Below, piece by piece: positions 6,195 through 37,094 of a DNA stretch of 64,000 bases (positions are counted from its first letter, which is position 1; the number at the start of each line of letters is the position of its first letter). The translations under genes and the position numbers were made by a program. The DNA is from Vagococcus penaei (lineage in GTDB: Bacteria; Bacillota; Bacilli; Lactobacillales; Vagococcaceae), in assembly GCF_001998885.1 (NCBI RefSeq), contig NZ_CP019609.1, positions 310,001-374,000 on the forward strand, read 5' to 3'. The notes under the pieces are model-generated. The model ran no database searches. It was not told the origin of the DNA and worked only from the letters and a program-made list of their open reading frames with translations.

Positions 6195-6880
6195 GAGCGC
6201 ATCACATACCCAGTACCACGAACAGTCTGGATATAACTATCTTCACCAGCTACATCAATTTTATTACGTAAGTAACGAATGTAAACATCCACAACATTAG
6301 TTTCGACTTCAATTTCGTAACCCCAAACTTTATTTAAAAGCACATCACGTGATAAAACCACATTAATATTTTCCATTAAAATTAGTAAAAGCTCATATTC
6401 ACGTTTGGTTAACTCAATAATTTCATCGCCACGGCGTACAACACGATTTTCTTTTTCAATTGTTAAATCGCGATAAGTCAATGTGGTTTGCTTCGTTACA
6501 TTTTTATCGCCCTCAATATCAATTCGGCGTAATAATGCCCGTAAACGCGCTAATAATTCTTCAATCGCAAACGGCTTAACGATATAGTCATCTGCTCCAT
6601 GATCTAATCCTGAGACACGATCGATAACTGAATCTCGAGCTGTCATCATAATAATCGGTGTATTTTTAACTTGGCGAATGCGACGGCATACTTCAAGCCC
6701 GTTTAATTCAGGTAGCATTAGGTCTAATAAAATTGCCTCCCAATCACCCTCAACAGCAGCCTCTAGTCCTGTCCGTCCATTATAGTGCACTTCTGTTTCG
6801 TAACCTTCGTGTTTTAATTCTAGCTCAACAAAGCGTGCTAGGTTTTTTTCATCTTCAATAATTAAAATTTTATTTGACAT
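6191..6880 (-). CDS. OmpR-family response regulator, LisR/EtaR/CovR-like
   Basis: A 229-residue OmpR/PhoB regulator. The receiver domain has the acidic pair IIEDEKN, phospho-acceptor Asp in [11 protein letters not shown], Thr in MMTARDS and Lys in [20 protein letters not shown]. The winged helix ends RYLRNKID...[11 protein letters not shown]. The receiver is very close in character to LisR/EtaR/CovR regulators. The start at 6880 is preceded by AGAAAGG (slightly distant); an in-frame ATG ten codons upstream has no ribosome binding site. It is the promoter-proximal gene of the two-gene operon. Confidence 0.93.
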
Positions 6881-7000
6881 AAAGACACATGCCTTTCTAC
6901 TTTTTTCCATCAGTAATTAATCATTACCTAATCATTATAACGATATCTTAATAAAAAAGCTACGTAAATGTTTAAATTAGGTTGTAACTTTTGGTTATGA

Positions 7001-7040
7001 CTGCATAATAAAGCTCTCAACCTTATCAGATTGAGAGCTT
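7001..7040 (-). terminator. Terminator downstream of gnd
   Basis: A perfect 10-bp inverted repeat AAGCTCTCAA/TTGAGAGCTT (7011-7020 and 7031-7040) is followed on the minus strand by TTTATTAT. The U-tract is imperfect. Confidence 0.65.
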
Positions 7041-7051
7041 CTCAATACTAA

Positions 7052-8476
7052 CTATTTTGTTTCACCGTACCAATCGTAATGGAATACACCTTCACGATCT
7101 TTACGTAAATAAGTATGCGCACCAAAGTAATCTCTTTGAGCTTGAATAATATTAGCCGGTAAATCAGCTGTACGATATGAATCATAGTAGGCAATCGCTG
7201 ATGAGAATGTCGGACTTGGCACACCAGATTGTACTGCTAATGAAACAACATCACGAACAGCTTGTTGATAATCTGTCGTAATTGATAAGAAATACTCATC
7301 TAATAATAAATTCTTCAATTTAGGATTACGTTCATAGGCTTCAGTAATTTTTTGTAAAAATTGCGCCCGAATAATACAACCAGCACGGAAAATCTTTGCA
7401 ATCTCACCATAATTTAAATCCCATTGGTACTCTTCGCTTGCCATTCGCATTTGTGCGAAGCCTTGGGCGTAGCTCATGATTTTACTAAAATATAACGCTT
7501 GACGAATTTTTTCAATCATCGCTTGCTTATCCCCTGTAAATTGTGGGGCTTCAAATTGTGGAATTACCTTGCTAGCCGCAACACGTTCCTCTTTAAGAGC
7601 AGAAATATAGCGAGCAAAAACAGATTCTGTAATCAATGGCAATGGTGTTCCTAAATCTAAAGCATTTTGACTTGTCCATTTACCAGTTCCTTTATTACCC
7701 GCCGCATCTAAAATAACGTCAACGATTGGTTTACCAGTTCCTAAATCGTCTTTACGAGTTAATAAATCAGCTGTGATTTCAATCAAATAGCTATCTAATT
7801 CGCCAAGATTCCACTCTGTAAAAATGGCTGCTGCTTCATCAACAGATAAGCCTAAAACACGTGTTAAGATATCGTAAGATTCTGCAATCAATTGCATATC
7901 ACCATACTCGATCCCATTATGTACCATTTTGACATAGTGGCCAGCACCATTAGGACCAATATAAGTCACACAAGGTTCGCCATCATTGGCTTTTGCTGCC
8001 ATTTCAGTAAAGATTGGTGCTACTAAGTCATACGCTTCACGCTGTCCACCAGGCATCATAGCAGGTCCTTTTAATGCGCCTTCTTCACCACCAGAAACAC
8101 CAGTTCCGATAAAGTTAATACCAGAGTCAGCTAACTCTTCATTCCGACGAATAGTATCTTTAAAGAATGTATTTCCACCATCAATTAAAATATCGCCTTT
8201 ATCTAAATAAGGAAGTAAAGCTTGAATCGTCATATCAGTTGGTTTTCCTGCTTTAACCATCAACATAATTCTTCTAGGTCTTTCTAACGAATTAACAAAC
8301 TCTTCAATTGTATAAGTTGCCACTAAATTTTTATCAGCATGCTCCTTAATGACTTCTTCCGTTTTCGAAGCCGAACGGTTGAAAATAGCCACACTGTACC
8401 CTCTACTTTCAATGTTTAAAGCCAAATTCTTGCCCATAACGGCCATACCGACAACGCCGATTTGTTGTTTTGTCAT
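7052..8476 (-). CDS. gnd: 6-phosphogluconate dehydrogenase, decarboxylating
   Basis: It oxidises and decarboxylates 6-phosphogluconate to ribulose 5-phosphate with NADP+ in the oxidative pentose phosphate pathway. Length 474 is normal. The N-terminal Rossmann motif reads [17 protein letters not shown]; the substrate and catalytic region has [31 protein letters not shown] (catalytic Lys) and GNKGTGKWT; the C-terminal tail ends [10 protein letters not shown]. The start at 8476 has TAGGAGG 7 bp upstream; a 14-residue upstream extension is not family-like. Single-gene unit with its own terminator. Confidence 0.98.
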
Positions 8477-28980: not shown

Positions 28981-29904
28981 ATGAAAAATTTGCGACTAAC
29001 AGCTCTAATAGTGACAGTCTTGTGGGTCATTGCGTTATGGTTTTCATATAACCCCTCTCTTTTTTGGTATGCTTACCTGTTTTTATCTGGTATAACACTT
29101 ACATTTGCATTTTTTCTCTTATATCAAATTAAACTAAAACAAACATATCAACAAAGCAATGAACAAAAACGTCGTAAAGCGACAAGAAAGCGTTTAAAAT
29201 TATTAACTTACTTCAGTAAACAACAACGATTAACTGGTGACAATTCAACTAGCCAGCCTGACCCAAATGTTAAAAGTCGTCGTTATATTGAAACAACAAA
29301 CCGACCACGTAAAAATGCCCAAAACAATCTATCTTTTTTTACAACAAAAGATAAAATGTCTTCAATTAAAAATAAAGAATATTTGCATAGTAAAATCCCT
29401 TTACTCTATCAAGGTAGTATGCAAGAAACATTGTCTCAAGCCATTCAACAGTTAAAAGAGCAACACTATTTTACGAGCTTTTATGGCAATGTCACCAATA
29501 ACGACTTAATTCTACACTTTGAAGAATACGAAGGACGCAATATTTTTGAACTGTATGATAATATTATTCCAAATACATTTGCAAAAGTTCTTTATGATCC
29601 AAATACCGATACTAATCGAATTGGTATTTTTTTACACATCGTTCCGAAAAACTGTTTAAGTGAACCGATAATGGATGAAGATAGTCAAGAAGAATCGACT
29701 GATATCATGCTTGGTTTTATTGCAATGGAGGATACTCATCGTGCCAATTTATTACTAAAAAAATACGATAATATCCAAGTTTTCGCAACAATTGTTGGCG
29801 GAACATATAAACGCGTTTACCAAAATGAACTTGGCGAAATCAGAATCATTAAAGATTTTATTAATTATGATTTGACTATTTCATTAGCTTTTTACAATAG
29901 TTGA
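28981..29904 (+). CDS. Unknown membrane-anchored protein with a cytoplasmic-type C-terminal domain
   Basis: I do not recognise this 307-residue protein. Two TM helices form a hairpin at about residues 6-24 and 29-50, followed by a strongly basic linker (QKRRKATRKRLKLLTYFSK) that places residues 51-307 in the cytoplasm by the positive-inside rule. The C-terminal domain (about 150-305) looks globular and mixed alpha/beta. AGGTGG precedes the ATG. It is a single-gene unit with a strong terminator, facing away from dinG. Codon use looks like its neighbours. Confidence 0.8.
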   Translation: MKNLRLTALIVTVLWVIALWFSYNPSLFWYAYLFLSGITLTFAFFLLYQIKLKQTYQQSNEQKRRKATRKRLKLLTYFSKQQRLTGDNSTSQPDPNVKSRRYIETTNRPRKNAQNNLSFFTTKDKMSSIKNKEYLHSKIPLLYQGSMQETLSQAIQQLKEQHYFTSFYGNVTNNDLILHFEEYEGRNIFELYDNIIPNTFAKVLYDPNTDTNRIGIFLHIVPKNCLSEPIMDEDSQEESTDIMLGFIAMEDTHRANLLLKKYDNIQVFATIVGGTYKRVYQNELGEIRIIKDFINYDLTISLAFYNS

Positions 29905-29983: not shown

Positions 29984-30382
29984 TTAATTTTGAGGTTTAG
30001 CTGCCAATAAATCAATTTCAATAGATAATTCTGGCAAACCTAAAGCTGTGACATAAACAATCGTCATCGATGGATTTTCTGGAAAAAAATCATGCCATAT
30101 TGCATCAAAATGCTCCCAATCAATTTCTTCAACCGACCAAATATTAACTTTAATCACATTTTCTGCTGTCAATCCCTCAGCATCTAATACTCGGCGCATA
30201 TTGGCAAACGTATACTCTACTTGTTGCCGATGTGTTTTAGGTATTGTTCCAGATGAATCAATACCAATTTGACCTGAAAAAGTATATAAAGTACTATTTG
30301 CTGGAATCACTGTTACGTGGCTATATTCACCCACCGGTGCGGGAACTGCATTGGGGTTACGTCTGATAATTTTATTCGTCAT
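29984..30382 (-). CDS. RidA/YjgF/YER057c/UK114 family protein
   Basis: A 132-residue RidA-superfamily protein. Family members hydrolyse reactive enamine/imine intermediates or have other small-molecule roles. The fold is recognisable from YTFSGQIGIDSSG, an ANMRRVLDAEGLTAENVIKV helix-strand and FPENPSMTIVYVTALGLPEL. The canonical IdnDH-type Arg (usually in CPARSCV/NPARTTV) is replaced by Met/Thr (PSMTIVYV), so it probably belongs to a subgroup other than true RidA deaminases. It has its own ribosome binding site and stands alone. Confidence 0.85.
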   Translation of the reverse strand: MTNKIIRRNPNAVPAPVGEYSHVTVIPANSTLYTFSGQIGIDSSGTIPKTHRQQVEYTFANMRRVLDAEGLTAENVIKVNIWSVEEIDWEHFDAIWHDFFPENPSMTIVYVTALGLPELSIEIDLLAAKPQN

Positions 30383-30497
30383 GTTATTTTCCTCTATTCT
30401 TTTTATTGTCTAACTCATGAATGATTAAATTAGTCAATCTAATAACTAATCTAAGTAAAAATAGTTGATAACTTTTTTAGTCACCAGTTAGACGATT

Positions 30498-30563
30498 TTA
30501 GAAGAAAACAGCTGTTGAATAACCAATACCAATTGATAAAAAACCTAAAATTCTTTTTTTCAT
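30498..30563 (-). CDS. Possible 21-residue membrane peptide
   Basis: ATG at 30563 is preceded by GAGAGGTGAG at good spacing and opens a 21-codon frame, MKKRILGFLSIGIGYSTAVFF (shown here only as a short peptide: MKKR, then about 17 hydrophobic/small residues). A basic start plus one hydrophobic helix is typical of small membrane proteins and type I toxin-like peptides. I see no antisense RNA promoter that would prove the latter. It fills a 319-bp gap between ridA and ywbE that otherwise holds no gene. No family recognised. Confidence 0.4.
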   Translation of the reverse strand: MKKRILGFLSIGIGYSTAVFF

Positions 30564-30701
30564 TGATTACTCACCTCTCTTTCACTTCAAATTGTAGCCA
30601 ATCCTAAAATATAAGTCAACAAATAACCTAATTGATCCTCCTGTATACAACAAACTATGCTAAAATAAACTCTATGTCATGTACAAGAAAAGAGGTATAT
30701 T

Positions 30702-30902
30702 ATGGACGGAAAAACTCGGAGCAATCTTAAAGTAGGTCAACTTGTCGATATTGTTTTAAAAAAAGATCAACGAACCGGAAACTTAACAAGAGGCCATATT
30801 AAAAAAATTTTGACAAATAGCGCGAATCACCCACATGGGATTAAAGTAATGCTTGACGAACAAAATCAAGTTGGACGTGTCAAACAAATCATCTCTAACT
30901 AA
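30702..30902 (+). CDS. YwbE family protein (DUF2196)
   Basis: A 66-residue protein matching the YwbE family: GKTRSNLKVGQLVDIVLKKD, QRTGNLTRGHIKKILTNS and HPHGIKVML are its hallmarks. It is a small basic beta-rich protein of unknown function, predicted by others to be nucleic-acid related. AGAGG precedes the ATG. It is monocistronic with a strong shared terminator. Confidence 0.92.
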   Translation: MDGKTRSNLKVGQLVDIVLKKDQRTGNLTRGHIKKILTNSANHPHGIKVMLDEQNQVGRVKQIISN

Positions 30903-30907
30903 TCAAG

Positions 30908-30958
30908 CAAAAAAGTAACAAAAAAATGATAGTTCGACATCATTTTTTGTTACTTTTT
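30908..30958. terminator. Bidirectional terminator between ywbE and the GtrA gene
   Basis: AAAAAAGTAACAAAAAAATGAT / ATCATTTTTTGTTACTTTTT, a long AT-rich stem with tracts on both sides. Confidence 0.88.
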
Positions 30959-31496
30959 ATTGCTTTTCCTTAGTACTAGGTACTGTCTTTTTCTCAGCGA
31001 AAATAGCTTTTTTAGAGATAATGTAATTAATTACAATAGCTAATACTTGTACTAATAATGCAAAAATAAATTCATTTAATAGCGCCGCATTGCCTATGAA
31101 TCTGACTAAAATAGGATTACTAAAAAAGAATGATTCATAATTAAATTGATCAAAAAACAGAAAGTGAATAAAAAAATCTGAATACTGATCAACTGCAAAC
31201 CATGTAATACCAATATCTAAGAAAAACACAAAAAGACGGCCAATAATAAAACCAATTAATTGTGTCAAAATTGCAATTGGTTGCCAATTCTTATCTTGAA
31301 AGACAAAAATTTTATTGGTAAAATAGGCAAATAAAATAGCAGTAACTTGAGCCCATATCACTGCTCGCATCGAGTTTTCAGTTATTGCAATAACTGAAAA
31401 TCGGGTGATAAAGTATACCGCAGTAGTCAAAATACCAAAAATCAAATAAGTGATTGTTTCACGGTTAACAAATCGTTTCAATTTATTCACTTCCAT
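30957..31496 (-). CDS. GtrA-like flippase family membrane protein
   Basis: A 179-residue GtrA/DPMS-like protein with four TM helices (about 13-35, 40-62, 75-97 and 140-165) and an unusually long loop between TM3 and TM4. GtrA proteins are thought to flip polyprenyl-phosphate sugars made by a GtrB-type GT2 enzyme. A GT2 enzyme, a GT-C-like protein and other membrane partners lie 1 kb away. The ATG at 31496 has no clear ribosome binding site; TTG at 31481 with GGAAG 8 bp upstream is an alternative start. The C-terminus is basic and cytoplasmic. Confidence 0.85.
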   Translation of the reverse strand: MEVNKLKRFVNRETITYLIFGILTTAVYFITRFSVIAITENSMRAVIWAQVTAILFAYFTNKIFVFQDKNWQPIAILTQLIGFIIGRLFVFFLDIGITWFAVDQYSDFFIHFLFFDQFNYESFFFSNPILVRFIGNAALLNEFIFALLVQVLAIVINYIISKKAIFAEKKTVPSTKEKQ

Positions 31497-31680
31497 TTAT
31501 CAAAGATAGTTAATTAATATATATGTTTAAAACATACTACTAAATATACTATTTAAATATTTTAACGTCAAACATTTCCTAAAACATAAAACGTAAATTT
31601 TCAAGATAAATTCAAAAAAATAGAAACTCATTAAAAATCATGTTATCATTATTATAGAAAATAATTTAGGAGTGATAGTT

Positions 31681-32058
31681 ATGAAAATGGCACATACTTG
31701 TGTACGTGTAAAAAATTTAGATGATTCATTAAAGTTTTACAAAAATGCATTTAACTTTGAAGAAAGTCGTCGTCGTGATTTCCCAGAACATAAATTTACC
31801 TTGGTTTATTTAACACTACCTGGTGATGACTACGAACTAGAACTAACTTATAACTACGATCATGAAGGTTATGATTTAGGTAATGGTTACGGACACATTG
31901 CAATCGCAACTGAAGACTTGGAAGGTTTACACGCCAAACAAAAAGCAGCTGGATTTGATGTAACTGACTTAAAAAACTTACCTGGCGTACCACCTTCTTA
32001 TTATTTTATTACTGATCCTGACGGCTATAAAGTTGAAGTCATTAGAGTTAAAAAATAA
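31681..32058 (+). CDS. VOC family protein, lactoylglutathione lyase-like (glyoxalase I)
   Basis: A 125-residue vicinal oxygen chelate protein similar to bacterial glyoxalase I, which isomerises the methylglyoxal-thiol hemithioacetal. Two beta-alpha-beta-beta-beta modules are seen, and candidate metal ligands are His5 (MAHTCVRV), Glu in YELELTYNY, His in GYGHIAIA and Glu in YKVEVIRV, as in GloA. ATG at 31681 has AGGAG 8 bp upstream. It stands alone inside the glycosylation region, divergent from the GtrA gene. Confidence 0.9.
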   Translation: MKMAHTCVRVKNLDDSLKFYKNAFNFEESRRRDFPEHKFTLVYLTLPGDDYELELTYNYDHEGYDLGNGYGHIAIATEDLEGLHAKQKAAGFDVTDLKNLPGVPPSYYFITDPDGYKVEVIRVKK

Positions 32059-32097
32059 TATCACCAAATGAAGCTTATTTCTATTATTTAAAATGAC

Positions 32098-32145
32098 AAA
32101 TCGCATGAAAATGGTTTAATTAACCATTTTCATGCGATTTTTTAA
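32098..32145. terminator. Bidirectional terminator
   Basis: AAATCGCATGAAAATGGT / ACCATTTTCATGCGATTTTTT, an 18-bp near-perfect stem serving the VOC gene and the opposing glycosylation operon. Confidence 0.92.
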
Positions 32146-32161
32146 TATATATTCTTTATTA

Positions 32162-32500
32162 TTAACGATTAATTAATAAGGTACCAGCTAAAACTAAAAC
32201 AATCCCAATGACACTAGTCATACTGATTGTTTCTTTTAAAACAAATGCTGATCCAATTAAAATTAAAATATTTGTTAGACCTAAACCTAAAGGAACTACA
32301 ATATGAACATCTGATTTAGAAATAATCATCATCCATAAAACAAAACTAACTAAATAACATGATAAGCCCACTAAACTTAAAAATGGGAAATTCATATTTA
32401 ATTGATTATCTAATAATTTGATAGATAAATCAGTTGAGCCCAGTTTAAATAAAATAATCCCTGATGATGATAGGATAACATAAATTATAAATAGTATCAT
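32162..32500 (-). CDS. EamA/SMR-like small membrane transporter
   Basis: A 112-residue protein with four TM helices, half the size of a DMT exporter and like the ArnE/ArnF or SMR type. The pattern HIVVPLGLGLTNILILIGS followed by FVLKETISMTSVIGIVLVLAGTLLI is typical of EamA C-terminal halves. Its start overlaps the upstream gene stop by 4 bp, so it is translationally coupled to DUF2304 and the glycosyltransferase. By context it may flip or export a lipid-linked sugar; that is inference. Confidence 0.8.
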   Translation of the reverse strand: MILFIIYVILSSSGIILFKLGSTDLSIKLLDNQLNMNFPFLSLVGLSCYLVSFVLWMMIISKSDVHIVVPLGLGLTNILILIGSAFVLKETISMTSVIGIVLVLAGTLLINR

Positions 32501-32847
32501 TGTTCTTTATTTTTCTCCTCAATTTCTTTTTTTAATAGTGACACTTCTTGAACCAAGCTTTTAATATAGTTTGATTGCTTTGTTAAACTCATAGTAAACA
32601 AAATCAACTGAATCAGACAAAACAATACAGCAGCAAACAATAAAAAATTAGATGTCACTTCAAAGCCAAATATTTTAGCTAGATATGCCGGTATGGCTGG
32701 AAGAAGAGAAAAAATTAGTAACACAACCCCAACTAATAACCAGGTCAATGCATAATTAATAGTAAATGTATCATTACGAATCAAGCGAATAACAAACCAT
32801 AAAAAGCCGATTGAAATGAGCGTCATAACAAGTGATAATATCGTCAT
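32497..32847 (-). CDS. DUF2304 domain membrane protein
   Basis: A 116-residue protein with three TM helices (about 4-22, 34-55 and 66-90) and a charged coiled-coil tail (LVQEVSLLKKEIEEKNKE). DUF2304 proteins regularly sit next to GT2 polyprenyl-phosphate glycosyltransferases and may anchor or assist them. It overlaps the genes on both sides by 4 bp (ATGA). Function not established. Confidence 0.85.
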   Translation of the reverse strand: MTILSLVMTLISIGFLWFVIRLIRNDTFTINYALTWLLVGVVLLIFSLLPAIPAYLAKIFGFEVTSNFLLFAAVLFCLIQLILFTMSLTKQSNYIKSLVQEVSLLKKEIEEKNKEQ

Positions 32848-33563
32848 TTACGACTCCCCTTTCCAAACAATAATAAAATAGACGTACAAACTTCAGCCAT
32901 ATAAACTACTGACTTTAATTGAGTAATTGATGATTGACCTTCTAAACGCTCAAACATATTAGCACCAATCTCAGATACACGATATTTTTTCTGAATTAAT
33001 TCTGCTGTTAACTCAGGTTCAGGATATTTTAATGGATAGTCATGAGCAAATAAGTCAATAATTTCCTTATTAGCCGCCCGATAGCCTGAGGTAACATCGT
33101 ATACCTTTTTTCCAGTAACTAATTTAATACAAAAAGAAATAATCTTGATACCCATTCTACGCGAAAATGATGTTTTGAATTCTGAAGGTGAATCCGTTGT
33201 AAACCGTGAACCAATAGTAAAATCGGCTACATCAGTCAGAATCGGCTGTACTAAATTATTGATAGATCTAATATCATGTTGACCATCACCATCAAATTGT
33301 ACAGCAATGTCATAATCATGATAATAAGCGTATAAATAACCAGTCTGCATAGCACCACCGATGCCTAAATTTTTAATTAAATGAACGGCATTTAATTTGT
33401 TTGTTTCAATTATTTCTTTTGTTTTATCTGTTGAACCATCATTAACAATAATATAATCCAACTGAAATGGTAATTCTTGTTTGTAACTCTCAACTTTTTT
33501 TATATTGTCGAGTATATTTCCTTCTTCATTATATGCAGGTATGACGAGTAACACTTTCTTCAT
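32844..33563 (-). CDS. GT2 polyprenyl-phosphate glycosyltransferase (DPM1/GtrB-like)
   Basis: A 239-residue family 2 glycosyltransferase like dolichol-phosphate mannosyltransferase or GtrB, which makes a polyprenyl-phosphate sugar from a nucleotide sugar on the cytoplasmic face. Motifs are LVIPAYNEEGNI, the IIVNDGSTDKT loop, metal-binding DxD in VQFDGDGQHD, and SGYRAANKEI. Unlike GtrB it lacks a pair of C-terminal TM helices, with only a weak hydrophobic end; DUF2304 encoded next could supply the membrane anchor. Its sugar is unknown. Confidence 0.92.
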   Translation of the reverse strand: MKKVLLVIPAYNEEGNILDNIKKVESYKQELPFQLDYIIVNDGSTDKTKEIIETNKLNAVHLIKNLGIGGAMQTGYLYAYYHDYDIAVQFDGDGQHDIRSINNLVQPILTDVADFTIGSRFTTDSPSEFKTSFSRRMGIKIISFCIKLVTGKKVYDVTSGYRAANKEIIDLFAHDYPLKYPEPELTAELIQKKYRVSEIGANMFERLEGQSSITQLKSVVYMAEVCTSILLLFGKGSRK

Positions 33564-33565
33564 AT

Positions 33566-35395
33566 TTAATGTTTTTCTCCTTCTCTATTACTACTCATTG
33601 CTAACACAAGTAGTAAAGGTGTAAATAAAACTAATGGCAAGATATATCTAATATACCCTAAAGTAATTGGCCCTGCAATTAAAGTTCCTAAAAAAGCACC
33701 CATTGGAATCACAATAGCCGCCAATAGAAATTTCTTTTGACGTAGCCATAAAACAAACACTGCTAGCATCACAAAAATATATGTACCATAATTATTTATT
33801 TGTGACAATAACGGTAACCTATCCCATAACTGATAAAGCTTCACTCTACCACGGTTGAGTTTTACTGATAATGAATTATCAGTCAATCCAATTTTACTAA
33901 CGCGTTCTACTTGGTTTTCACCATCAGAATCAATCAAGCCATTGGAATAATACCAATTAACAGAAAGATTTAAATTAAATAAATTTGAATGATTTGCCAT
34001 AACAGATTCAACTAAGACAAAAGGGTGTTTTTTAATTTGTCTGCCTACTAAATTAAAATACTGTGACATTTCAGCTTTTGTAGCATTCTCATCATGAGTC
34101 CTTTTTACCGCATCAGAACGATGAGGCACATAACTTTTTCTTATCACATCGTATTTTAACACATTATTAATTATTGCTTTATCATTTGAACTAATATCAT
34201 CTTCATGATACTTAATGTAACGTGCTGTATGTTGAAATGGTAAAGATAGCATCTCACGTCGATTTGGTTTAGGTTGTGCTTCTGCAAATTGACTAACGAA
34301 AATATTATTAATTAGCGTCCCACAAACTAACCCTAAAATCATCATTGGAACAATAGTTAATGGTAAATATATTTTTCGACGCAAAATTAAGCCACCAATG
34401 ATATAGACAACTAACGTTAATGCAATAAAGTGCAGTGTATTATAACGGAATAATAGCATCAATAAAACACTTAAAAAAGTCATTATAAACATTTTATTTT
34501 TTCGGTACATCTCTTGGTTGAAGAAATACGTTGCGGTAGTTGTCATGTATACCACAAAAAATACAGAAAAAATAATATCTTTAGTCGCCAAAATCACAGA
34601 AGCATTTACCATAGGAATAAATGTCATCACTACAGTAACTATCATCAACATTTTTGTCTTCAAAGTAAGCTTATACACAGTACTAATAGCATATGCCATA
34701 GAACTAGCAACTAATGTCACTTGTAAAATAGTAAAAATAAATAGTCCAATATTAGGATGATTTATTATAGCACCAAATTTAACTAAACTTCCAATGAGCA
34801 CTGTCGATAACACAGGATGTGCCGCTGTTCGAACTTGGTAGTGAAAATATTGTTCTATCTGATCAAGGGTGTCTCCCATGAACACACTTGGATAGGCTGT
34901 TACAGCAATGTATAACCAGACACACATCATAAGCCCAAAAGGCACTAAAAAAGGATGGTTTGCAAACGTCACTTGAAGTTTGCGACTGATTGGTAATTTA
35001 ATTGTTTGGTGCTCTGTTGTACTAAAATATGTAAGGATTTTTTGCAATGATTCAATAATTAAGTAAAAACTCACAACAAACAATATACTGTACAGCAAAC
35101 TAATAGGATGGTGAAAAACTTTATTAGCAGTATCAATTCCGGCTTCATATATCGTTGTAAACCATGTACAAATAGCAAAAAATAATGATACAATTTTCTG
35201 TAAAATATTTGTTTTTTGTTTCAAACGATCAACTAAAATAAAAAAAAGTACACAGCCTACTAATGCAAAGGTTGTGAGATAAGGATCATTCGTTAAAGTT
35301 TTATAGATTAATGAATAACCTTCTGTCGTCTTTATATTTTTAAAAGAGACTGTTAATCCCAATGCTACAATAACTCCTTGTATCACTTTTTTCAT
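33566..35395 (-). CDS. Polytopic membrane protein, DUF6020/GT-C glycosyltransferase-like
   Basis: A 609-residue protein with about 12-13 TM helices. After the fifth or so helix comes AYPSVFMGDTLDQIEQYFHY, where Asp in an external loop after a TM is typical of GT-C enzymes that use lipid-linked sugars. A large extracytoplasmic segment (about 400-500) lies between late helices. ATG at 35395 follows GGAGG; an upstream extension to 35464 has no ribosome binding site. It heads a tight operon with a GT2 enzyme 2 bp downstream, so it is the likely transferase moving a polyprenyl-P-sugar onto a surface polymer. Confidence 0.78.
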   Translation of the reverse strand: MKKVIQGVIVALGLTVSFKNIKTTEGYSLIYKTLTNDPYLTTFALVGCVLFFILVDRLKQKTNILQKIVSLFFAICTWFTTIYEAGIDTANKVFHHPISLLYSILFVVSFYLIIESLQKILTYFSTTEHQTIKLPISRKLQVTFANHPFLVPFGLMMCVWLYIAVTAYPSVFMGDTLDQIEQYFHYQVRTAAHPVLSTVLIGSLVKFGAIINHPNIGLFIFTILQVTLVASSMAYAISTVYKLTLKTKMLMIVTVVMTFIPMVNASVILATKDIIFSVFFVVYMTTTATYFFNQEMYRKNKMFIMTFLSVLLMLLFRYNTLHFIALTLVVYIIGGLILRRKIYLPLTIVPMMILGLVCGTLINNIFVSQFAEAQPKPNRREMLSLPFQHTARYIKYHEDDISSNDKAIINNVLKYDVIRKSYVPHRSDAVKRTHDENATKAEMSQYFNLVGRQIKKHPFVLVESVMANHSNLFNLNLSVNWYYSNGLIDSDGENQVERVSKIGLTDNSLSVKLNRGRVKLYQLWDRLPLLSQINNYGTYIFVMLAVFVLWLRQKKFLLAAIVIPMGAFLGTLIAGPITLGYIRYILPLVLFTPLLLVLAMSSNREGEKH

Positions 35396-35464
35396 AATGT
35401 TAAATTGCCTCCAAATTTTAAAATTGAATATATAGTATAGTATATCATAAAAAATTAATATCAA

Positions 35465-35495
35465 TTTATAAATAAAAGCCCCTTTTATTTATAAA
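35465..35495. repeat. Perfect 14-bp inverted repeat upstream of the glycosylation operon
   Basis: TTTATAAATAAAAG-CCC-CTTTTATTTATAAA. On the minus strand it lies just before TTGATA (possible -35) with a TATACT further down, about 70 bp upstream of the start at 35395. Candidate operator, or a weak terminator for readthrough. Confidence 0.6.
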
Positions 35496-35518
35496 TATAG
35501 ACTTCTAGATTTGACGTA

Positions 35519-35556
35519 TTAAAAAAGTAATAACTATACAAGTTATTACTTTTTTT
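35519..35556 (-). terminator. Terminator downstream of the DUF1846 gene
   Basis: AAAAAAGTAATAACT / AGTTATTACTTTTTTT with a 5-nt loop; A and T tracts on both sides. Confidence 0.82.
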
Positions 35557-35573
35557 AAACTAGTGATTCTAAA

Positions 35574-37094
35574 TTAAATATAAAATAAATTTTCAGATGA
35601 AAAGACTGCATCAGTTGTCACATCAATACCAAGTTTTTTCAAAATTTGCTCATCATCTTTATTTAATATCACCGTTGAATGAGCTTGTGTCCCAACTAAT
35701 TTTGTTAACTGCTCATATGCCAATTGAGCTGTTGGATTAGTCACCGCACTCATGGCTAAAGCAATTAATACCTCATTTGTATTTAATGCTGTAATTTTAC
35801 TGTGTAATTCTGATACTTTCATTTTCTGAATAGTCTCTAAAATAACCGGTGATAATAATAAAATATCGTCACTAATACTTGCTAAATGCTTAACTGAATT
35901 TAAGATAGCTGAGGCTGAAGCATCCATTAAATGAGTTGAACGACCTGTTATAATTTTACCATCAGGTAATTCAAATGCCATAACCGATGTAATCGCAAGA
36001 TCATCTTTAACCTGACCTCTTTGTTTTACTTCCTTAGCATACTCTCTTGCTGGTACGACTGGTCGACGGTCTTCTTTTTTCAATTCCATCTCTTCCATGA
36101 TTAATTGAATGCGATTTACAACTTCATCATCAACTAATCCGCGCTTATAATATGATTCAGTATCAAAACAACGACGAATAATCTCTTCTTTAGATGCCGC
36201 TTGGACTACTGCATCATCGATAATGCCAAAGCCAACACGGTTTACACCCATGTCAGTTGGAGACTTAAAAACAGATGGTTCATTTGTAATACGTTCGATG
36301 ATTCGCTTAATTACAGGGAAAGTTTCCAAATCACGATTATAATTTACTGCAACTTCACCATATGCTTCATAATGGAAAGAATCAATCATATTAACATCTT
36401 TTAAATCAACAGTTGCAGCTTCATAAGCAATATTTACCGGGTGTTTTAGTGGTAAATTCCAGACTGGGAAAGTCTCGAATTTTGAATAGCCTGCTACACG
36501 GCCTAATTTATTTTCATGATAAATCTGACTAAGACTAGTAGCTAGCTTGCCACTTCCAGCTCCTGGTGCTGTTACTACAACGATGGGTTTTGTTGTTGGA
36601 ATATAAGGATTTTTACCAAAGCCCTCATCACTAACAATTTGATCAATATTGTAAGGATAGCCTTCAATGGCTTCATGTGTATAAACTTTAATATCACGTT
36701 TTTCTAGTTTATTAATAAAAATTTTCGTAGCTGGTTGGCCAGTGTAACGCGTAATAAGCACACTATTGACTGATAACCCATATTCATTAAACTCGTCAAT
36801 TGATTTCAAAATATCCATATCATAAGTAATTCCATAATCGCCACGAATTTTATTACGTTCGATATCACCAGCATAGACACAAATTAAAATTTCTGCTTTA
36901 TCCTTTAATTTTTGTAAAATTTTAATTTTAGAATCCTCATCAAAACCAGGCAATACACGTTTTGCATGTTTATCACCAATCAATTTACCACCAAATTCTA
37001 AATATAACTTATCATAATGATTGACACGCTCTAAGATAAACTTAGACTGTTCTTCAATATATTTTTTTGAATCAAAACCTATTTTTTTAGCCAT
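35574..37094 (-). CDS. DUF1846 family protein
   Basis: A 506-residue cytosolic protein of the DUF1846 family, widespread in Firmicutes; structures are known but no defined reaction. The sequence starts [18 protein letters not shown]. It has a nucleotide-binding-like loop [18 protein letters not shown] at about residues 175-192, a [11 protein letters not shown] segment and a C-terminal [18 protein letters not shown] motif. It sits between pyrG and the glycosylation operon as its own transcription unit. The loop suggests NTP use, but that is inference. Confidence 0.9.

Follow-up and report, generated by a model that had tools for sequence, protein, structure and literature searches.

The locus studied here raised the question of which protein carries a lipid-linked sugar across the membrane of Vagococcus penaei. 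The window, the whole stretch of 64,000 nucleotides that was analysed, corresponded to positions 310001-374000 of the complete single-contig genome (2.365 Mb). Four coupled genes lay on its minus strand, running from 35395 to 32162 in window positions, and encoded a DUF6020 protein, a family 2 glycosyltransferase (GT2), a DUF2304 protein and an EamA/SMR-like protein (SMR, small multidrug resistance), respectively. The gap between the DUF6020 and GT2 genes was 2 bp, and the GT2/DUF2304 and DUF2304/EamA junctions were 4-bp ATGA overlaps. A first-pass annotation of the sequence had proposed a coupled glycosylation operon, with either the EamA/SMR-like protein or a nearby GtrA-family protein as flippase. 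The genes it named (GT-C-like of 609 aa, GT2, DUF2304, EamA/SMR-like, GtrA and VOC) were all confirmed at the positions given, and the junctions bore out the coupling. We read the operon, with a probability of about 0.74, as a GacI/GacJ-type module for transmembrane glycosylation that has four components, one of them an SMR-like flippase.

The occupancy of the flippase position was surveyed in 295 Lactobacillales genomes, 50 of which had a strong DUF2304 match (E ≤ 1e-19), and the DNA around all 50 DUF2304 clusters was read over about 10-14 kb each. GT2 was directly upstream of DUF2304 in 50/50 clusters. An intact SMR-like gene was present in 19 of the 295 genomes, all of them among the 50 DUF2304-positive ones, and in 0 of the 245 genomes without strong DUF2304 (Fisher 8e-17, shared ancestry ignored). 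All 19 intact copies adjoined DUF2304, and in 18 genomes the gene followed it directly on the same strand. In one genome without DUF2304 (G027, L085), a truncated SMR-like frame with an internal stop was observed, possibly the remnant of a decaying module. Furthermore, the flippase slot of the 50 clusters was occupied by an SMR-like protein in 19 and by a Wzx-type protein in 31, and no cluster had both (Fisher's exact 3e-14, shared ancestry ignored); in L204 and L205 the Wzx gene sat just beyond the stretch first read. The Enterococcaceae, for which the first-pass annotation had suggested a synteny survey, gave the same picture when taken alone (SMR 8, Wzx 5, overlap 0, p 8e-4). In addition, an extra cytoplasmic GT2 of one family (the 'ICAYKES' type) accompanied 2 of the 19 SMR clusters, whereas 25 of the first 29 Wzx clusters to be tabulated had one (at least 25/31 overall), which suggests SMR-like proteins for single sugars and Wzx for longer units. 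The order GT2-DUF2304-SMR-DUF6020 recurred in the distant Bacilli metagenome-assembled genomes L098 and L099, which points to a set that is old or has moved as a unit. The SMR-like protein was thus clearly favoured over GtrA as the flippase of the operon. The new part is strong comparative and context evidence for a predicted SMR-like flippase in this GacI/GacJ variant, in a slot usually held by the much larger Wzx.

The properties of the SMR-like protein itself were consistent with this role. It resembled EmrE (profile E 0.0022; model fold with a TM-score of about 0.7), and the modelled protein had the features of lipid-type SMRs, namely four transmembrane (TM) helices, a length of about 110 aa and an EmrE-like fold. 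An acidic residue within TM1 was found in 0 of 12 SMR-like homologues, as in the ArnE/ArnF subtype. Lipid-type SMRs such as ArnE and ArnF often have no central Glu (PMC9574504). The match to the curated ArnF model was 22.8 bits (E 9.8e-5), below its cut-off of 99 bits. The protein is therefore predicted to work like ArnE/F, but it is no ArnF orthologue. Its identity to the aligned Enterococcus sequence was about 46%. On an Omnitrophota contig (L100 6390-7174), two adjacent, overlapping EamA/SMR-like frames were observed, like the paired ArnE/ArnF.

The GT2 of the operon had no hydrophobic segment, as the first-pass annotation had noted, whereas both CsbB-type GT2s of the genome had a C-terminal pair. 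Its profile matched the dolichol-phosphate-mannose synthase DPMS (5mlz, 2.7e-18) and ArnC (9hwj, 1.3e-14). The gene immediately downstream encoded the genome's sole DUF2304, a membrane protein for which a sequence search of the PDB gave no meaningful match. GacJ-like proteins have been described as typically belonging to DUF2304, and the pairs named are GacI/GacJ, WpsA/WpsB and EpaI/EpaJ (PMC8327497). GacI/GacJ and WpsA/WpsB produce N-acetylglucosamine (GlcNAc)-P-undecaprenol, and the small partner boosts the activity (PMC10821137). By families and gene order, the operon pair is a predicted undecaprenyl-phosphate-sugar synthase of the GacI/GacJ type, a pair type already known. The suggestion that the GT2 anchor is outsourced to DUF2304 fitted these results; it is neither unusual nor novel, since it is established in GacI/GacJ and WpsA/WpsB (PMC10821137, PMC8327497).

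The DUF6020 protein was examined with an AlphaFold model (pLDDT 78, pTM 0.82). Its nearest solved folds by VIA-align were Pmt4 (Z 17.5), ArnT (Z 16.1) and PglB (Z 14.7), and the 41 best rows of the fold search were all GT-C enzymes, followed by a drop to Z 7.5. The Foldseek E-values were weak taken alone (best 0.013). A sequence search of the PDB gave no solved relative, and no publication on DUF6020 was found in the literature search. Judged by its model, the protein has a GT-C fold, and D175 in its first long loop was invariant in 7 homologues. It is predicted to transfer the lipid-linked sugar to the acceptor. Outside Vagococcus, DUF6020 without DUF2304 often adjoined a GT2 with its own TM pair (L167, L168, L170, L171, L174-L176), so this transferase module occurs with either type of donor module. 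The GT-C-like protein beside the GT2-DUF2304-SMR triplet was DUF2142 in place of DUF6020 in several relatives. In L171 (2737-5649), a 970-aa protein with 19 TM helices and a DUF6020 part was observed; its neighbours were another DUF6020 gene and a TM-anchored GT2.

From what was computed here, namely which genes are present, how they are coupled, their families and folds, their co-occurrence and the exclusivity with Wzx, we infer the enzyme activities, the direction, energetics and mechanism of flipping, the sugar and the acceptor. DUF2304 would hold the GT2 at the membrane and activate it, and the GT2 would move one sugar from a nucleotide sugar onto undecaprenyl phosphate at the cytoplasmic face. 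The SMR-like protein, as a small dimer, would then let the sugar-P-undecaprenol cross the membrane. Uncoupled facilitated diffusion is probable for this step, because the protein has no counterpart of the proton-binding acid of EmrE. Finally, the DUF6020 GT-C protein would move the sugar onto an extracellular polymer. A GT-A donor synthase, a predicted flippase and a GT-C protein are encoded together, as in other multi-component transmembrane glycosylation systems, with the flippase role assigned by fold and context.

Within such a scheme, GtrA could instead be the true or a shared flippase, with the SMR-like protein in another role, for example as an additional membrane subunit in the GT2-DUF2304 synthase. 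GtrA is the accepted flippase candidate in CsbB/GtcA systems, one GtrA can serve several of them (CflA, L. lactis, PMC8035078), and about 0.7 kb separates gtrA from the operon. However, a terminator-like hairpin and the convergent gloA stand between them, so gtrA is outside the operon and a separate transcription unit. At least two GtrA matches were found in every Vagococcus genome searched, including five without DUF2304, and in the relatives' loci GtrA did not adjoin DUF2304. Moreover, two GtrAs (43% identical, the second at 1.795 Mb) are encoded in this genome, together with two TM-anchored CsbB-type GT2s that need flippases; GtrA is for this reason more likely the partner of the latter, and it probably serves them. 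A synthase subunit, in addition, would not be exchanged for Wzx. This alternative was considered unlikely, and GtrA was rejected as the dedicated flippase of the operon; of the two candidates put forward in the first-pass annotation, co-occurrence and Wzx exclusivity favoured the EamA/SMR-like protein, and the equal standing given to GtrA was not upheld. Directly after the second gtrA (L044 9425-15222, at about 1.795-1.801 Mb of the same genome), a Pfam-confirmed Cas9 of 1132 aa was observed. It was followed by three open reading frames sized and ordered as expected for cas1, cas2 and csn2, and the system is probably type II-A.

Slightly less likely again is a priming role, in which the module loads undecaprenyl phosphate with the first sugar of a longer repeat unit and DUF6020 ligates the finished oligosaccharide. 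The lactococcal WpsA/B act as primers in this way (PMC10821137), and many DUF2304 clusters have extra glycosyltransferases. The extra GT2s are nevertheless concentrated in the Wzx clusters, no additional glycosyltransferase was found in or beside the Vagococcus operon, and the pocket of a 4-TM SMR is small. An ordinary export function for small molecules, with the EamA/SMR-like gene at the operon end by chance, was regarded as very improbable. Exporters of drugs, metabolites and guanidinium are known in the EamA and SMR families, but the restriction of intact copies to the side of DUF2304, the missing TM1 acid in 12/12 homologues and the exclusivity with Wzx all speak against chance. For the SMR-like protein as flippase, several points count on the other side. 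The EamA/SMR folds include exporters of small molecules. In one Enterococcaceae genome (G286) with an epa-type locus, the SMR-like gene (L183 6355-6696) was opposite in orientation to DUF2304 (6770-7120). The exclusivity refers to the roughly 10-14 kb read, so that a distant Wzx is possible, and this genome has a Wzx in its exopolysaccharide cluster. Furthermore, several Wzx calls were made by homology to proteins that themselves match Pfam weakly, and the counts were not corrected for ancestry.

The SMR-containing triplet has a close counterpart in Enterococcus, where EpaI-EpaJ-EpaK of the epa locus is the same GT2-DUF2304-SMR-like series. The loci of E. plantarum, E. moraviensis, E. crotali and E. 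termitis contained rml genes, GT2, DUF2304, the SMR-like gene, an ABC permease, an ABC ATPase and a 1055-aa protein. This is the epa order, and the SMR-like protein therefore occupies the EpaK place; EpaK of E. faecalis was matched by gene order alone. Compared with epa, the Vagococcus triplet is outside any rhamnan locus, is accompanied by a DUF6020 GT-C protein and is in a genome without rhamnan genes. In a previous study of the EPA structure, EF2184, which we infer from gene order to be EpaK, was listed with three other proteins; their function was called hypothetical, with a possible part in the transport or transfer of lipid-bound sugars (PMC7188991). Strains with an insertion in epaJ or in epaK had no biofilm phenotype (PMC8428557). 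No publication naming EpaK a flippase was found in the literature search.

Other known systems share parts of the arrangement. The GacI/GacJ/GacK/GacL system of S. pyogenes likewise combines a TM-less GT2, DUF2304, a flippase and a GT-C protein for the extracytoplasmic addition of one sugar, but its flippase is the Wzx protein GacK, and its acceptor is rhamnan. In Lactococcus, a DUF2304-type partner activates the GT2 in WpsA/WpsB (with WpsG and WpsJ), for which there is in vitro activity (PMC10821137), whereas the lipid-linked product there grows into an oligosaccharide, which Wzx flips. The ArnC/ArnE-ArnF/ArnT system has a GT2 synthase, an SMR-type flippase and a GT-C transferase in common with the operon, and differs in its lipid A acceptor, its Gram-negative hosts and the absence of DUF2304. 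ArnC has TM segments of its own. The likeness to GtrA/GtrB/GtrC or CsbB/GtcA/YfhO drawn in the first-pass annotation held for the general three-component logic. These systems, namely CsbB/GtcA/YfhO and GtrB/GtrA/Gtr(type), are defined by a GT2 with its own TM pair and a GtrA flippase and have no DUF2304 or SMR-like partner, whereas the operon GT2 had no TM helix and GtrA was outside the operon. The earlier interpretation was thus partly supported: its outline was correct, it erred on GtrA and VOC, and its point on the GT2 anchor was not novel.

The acceptor had been proposed to be teichoic acid or a rhamnose polysaccharide. In the genome, RgpF had no match, a true RmlD was not found (best 54 bits, compared with 346 for bona fide RmlD), and neither was an EpaN-like protein. 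A rhamnan acceptor is unlikely because of these absences and was rejected; likewise, the operon does not conform to rhamnan decoration of the Rgp/Epa kind, as no rhamnan synthesis genes were found in the genome. Teichoic acid fitted better. CDP-glycerol polymerases (PF04464) and an ABC transporter were present at about 402-408 kb of this genome, and near the module in the relatives L028, L035 and L037 PF04464 (Glyphos_transf) teichoic-acid polymerases were encoded no more than a few genes away from it. In addition, gene content was read as including dlt-like genes, and there were three sulfatase-fold proteins that could include lipoteichoic acid synthase. Our leading guess for the acceptor is teichoic acid, and a teichoic acid or another glycopolymer is more likely than a rhamnan. 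By analogy, the sugar is most likely GlcNAc, with UDP-GlcNAc as the donor. TagF-like chains joining Glyphos_transf, GW and group-1 glycosyltransferase domains, with no evident membrane segments, were also observed (L028 1451-4786; L027 8611-12186).

The features of the locus are listed in the table below.

Features of the glycosylation operon and its surroundings (window positions)
Feature	Position	Strand	Evidence
DUF6020 polytopic membrane protein, 609 aa	33566..35395	-	PF19484 126 bits
GT2 without TM helices, 239 aa, predicted GacI/WpsA/EpaI-like polyprenyl-phosphate-sugar synthase	32844..33563	-	PF00535 68.5 bits
DUF2304, 116 aa, 3 TM, predicted GacJ/WpsB/EpaJ-like membrane partner/activator of the GT2	32497..32847	-	PF10066 82 bits
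EamA/SMR-like, 112 aa, 4 TM, predicted sugar-P-undecaprenol flippase (EpaK position)	32162..32500	-	PF00892 31.1 bits
Bidirectional intrinsic-terminator-like hairpin between operon and gloA	32098..32140	.	19-pair stem
Intergenic stretch upstream of operon, likely promoter region	35396..35573	-	178 bp to next gene
gloA (lactoylglutathione lyase), neighbour outside the system	31681..32058	+	NF050074 204 bits, cut-off 165
GtrA-family protein, separate gene	30957..31496	-	PF04138 43.4 bits

The VOC enzyme, which had been taken to be inserted between the parts of the system, was gloA by NF050074. It lay on the opposite strand, convergent with the operon across the hairpin, and was rejected as a system part; gtrA lay beyond it. 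In the intergenic region upstream of the operon, weak sigma-70-like sites were found at a frequency not above chance. The G+C content was about 30% over 30001-36000, which contains gtrA, gloA and the operon, compared with about 35-37% across most of the window. Horizontal spread of the module would be compatible with this low G+C and with the shifting gene neighbourhoods in relatives. At 28981-29904, a 307-aa protein with N-terminal hydrophobic segments and no Pfam match was observed.

In GacI- and Scc-type decoration systems, the flippase is so far at best a candidate, and EpaK has no assigned function. In S. mutans, for instance, the flippases of the decoration systems were drawn as question marks (PMC11754754). 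The SMR/Wzx pattern points to a candidate flippase of 112 aa and to the clusters expected to use it, and it suggests a rule for cargo size. On these comparisons, we lean towards the view that EpaK-type SMR-like proteins are dedicated flippases for sugar-P-undecaprenol and form a clade of their own in Firmicutes, and that the GacI/GacJ flippase slot is exchangeable, with SMR for single sugars and Wzx when the sugar is first extended on the lipid. If this is true, such a small flippase, in which no energy-coupling residue is obvious, would lend itself well to model studies of how lipid-linked sugars are transported.

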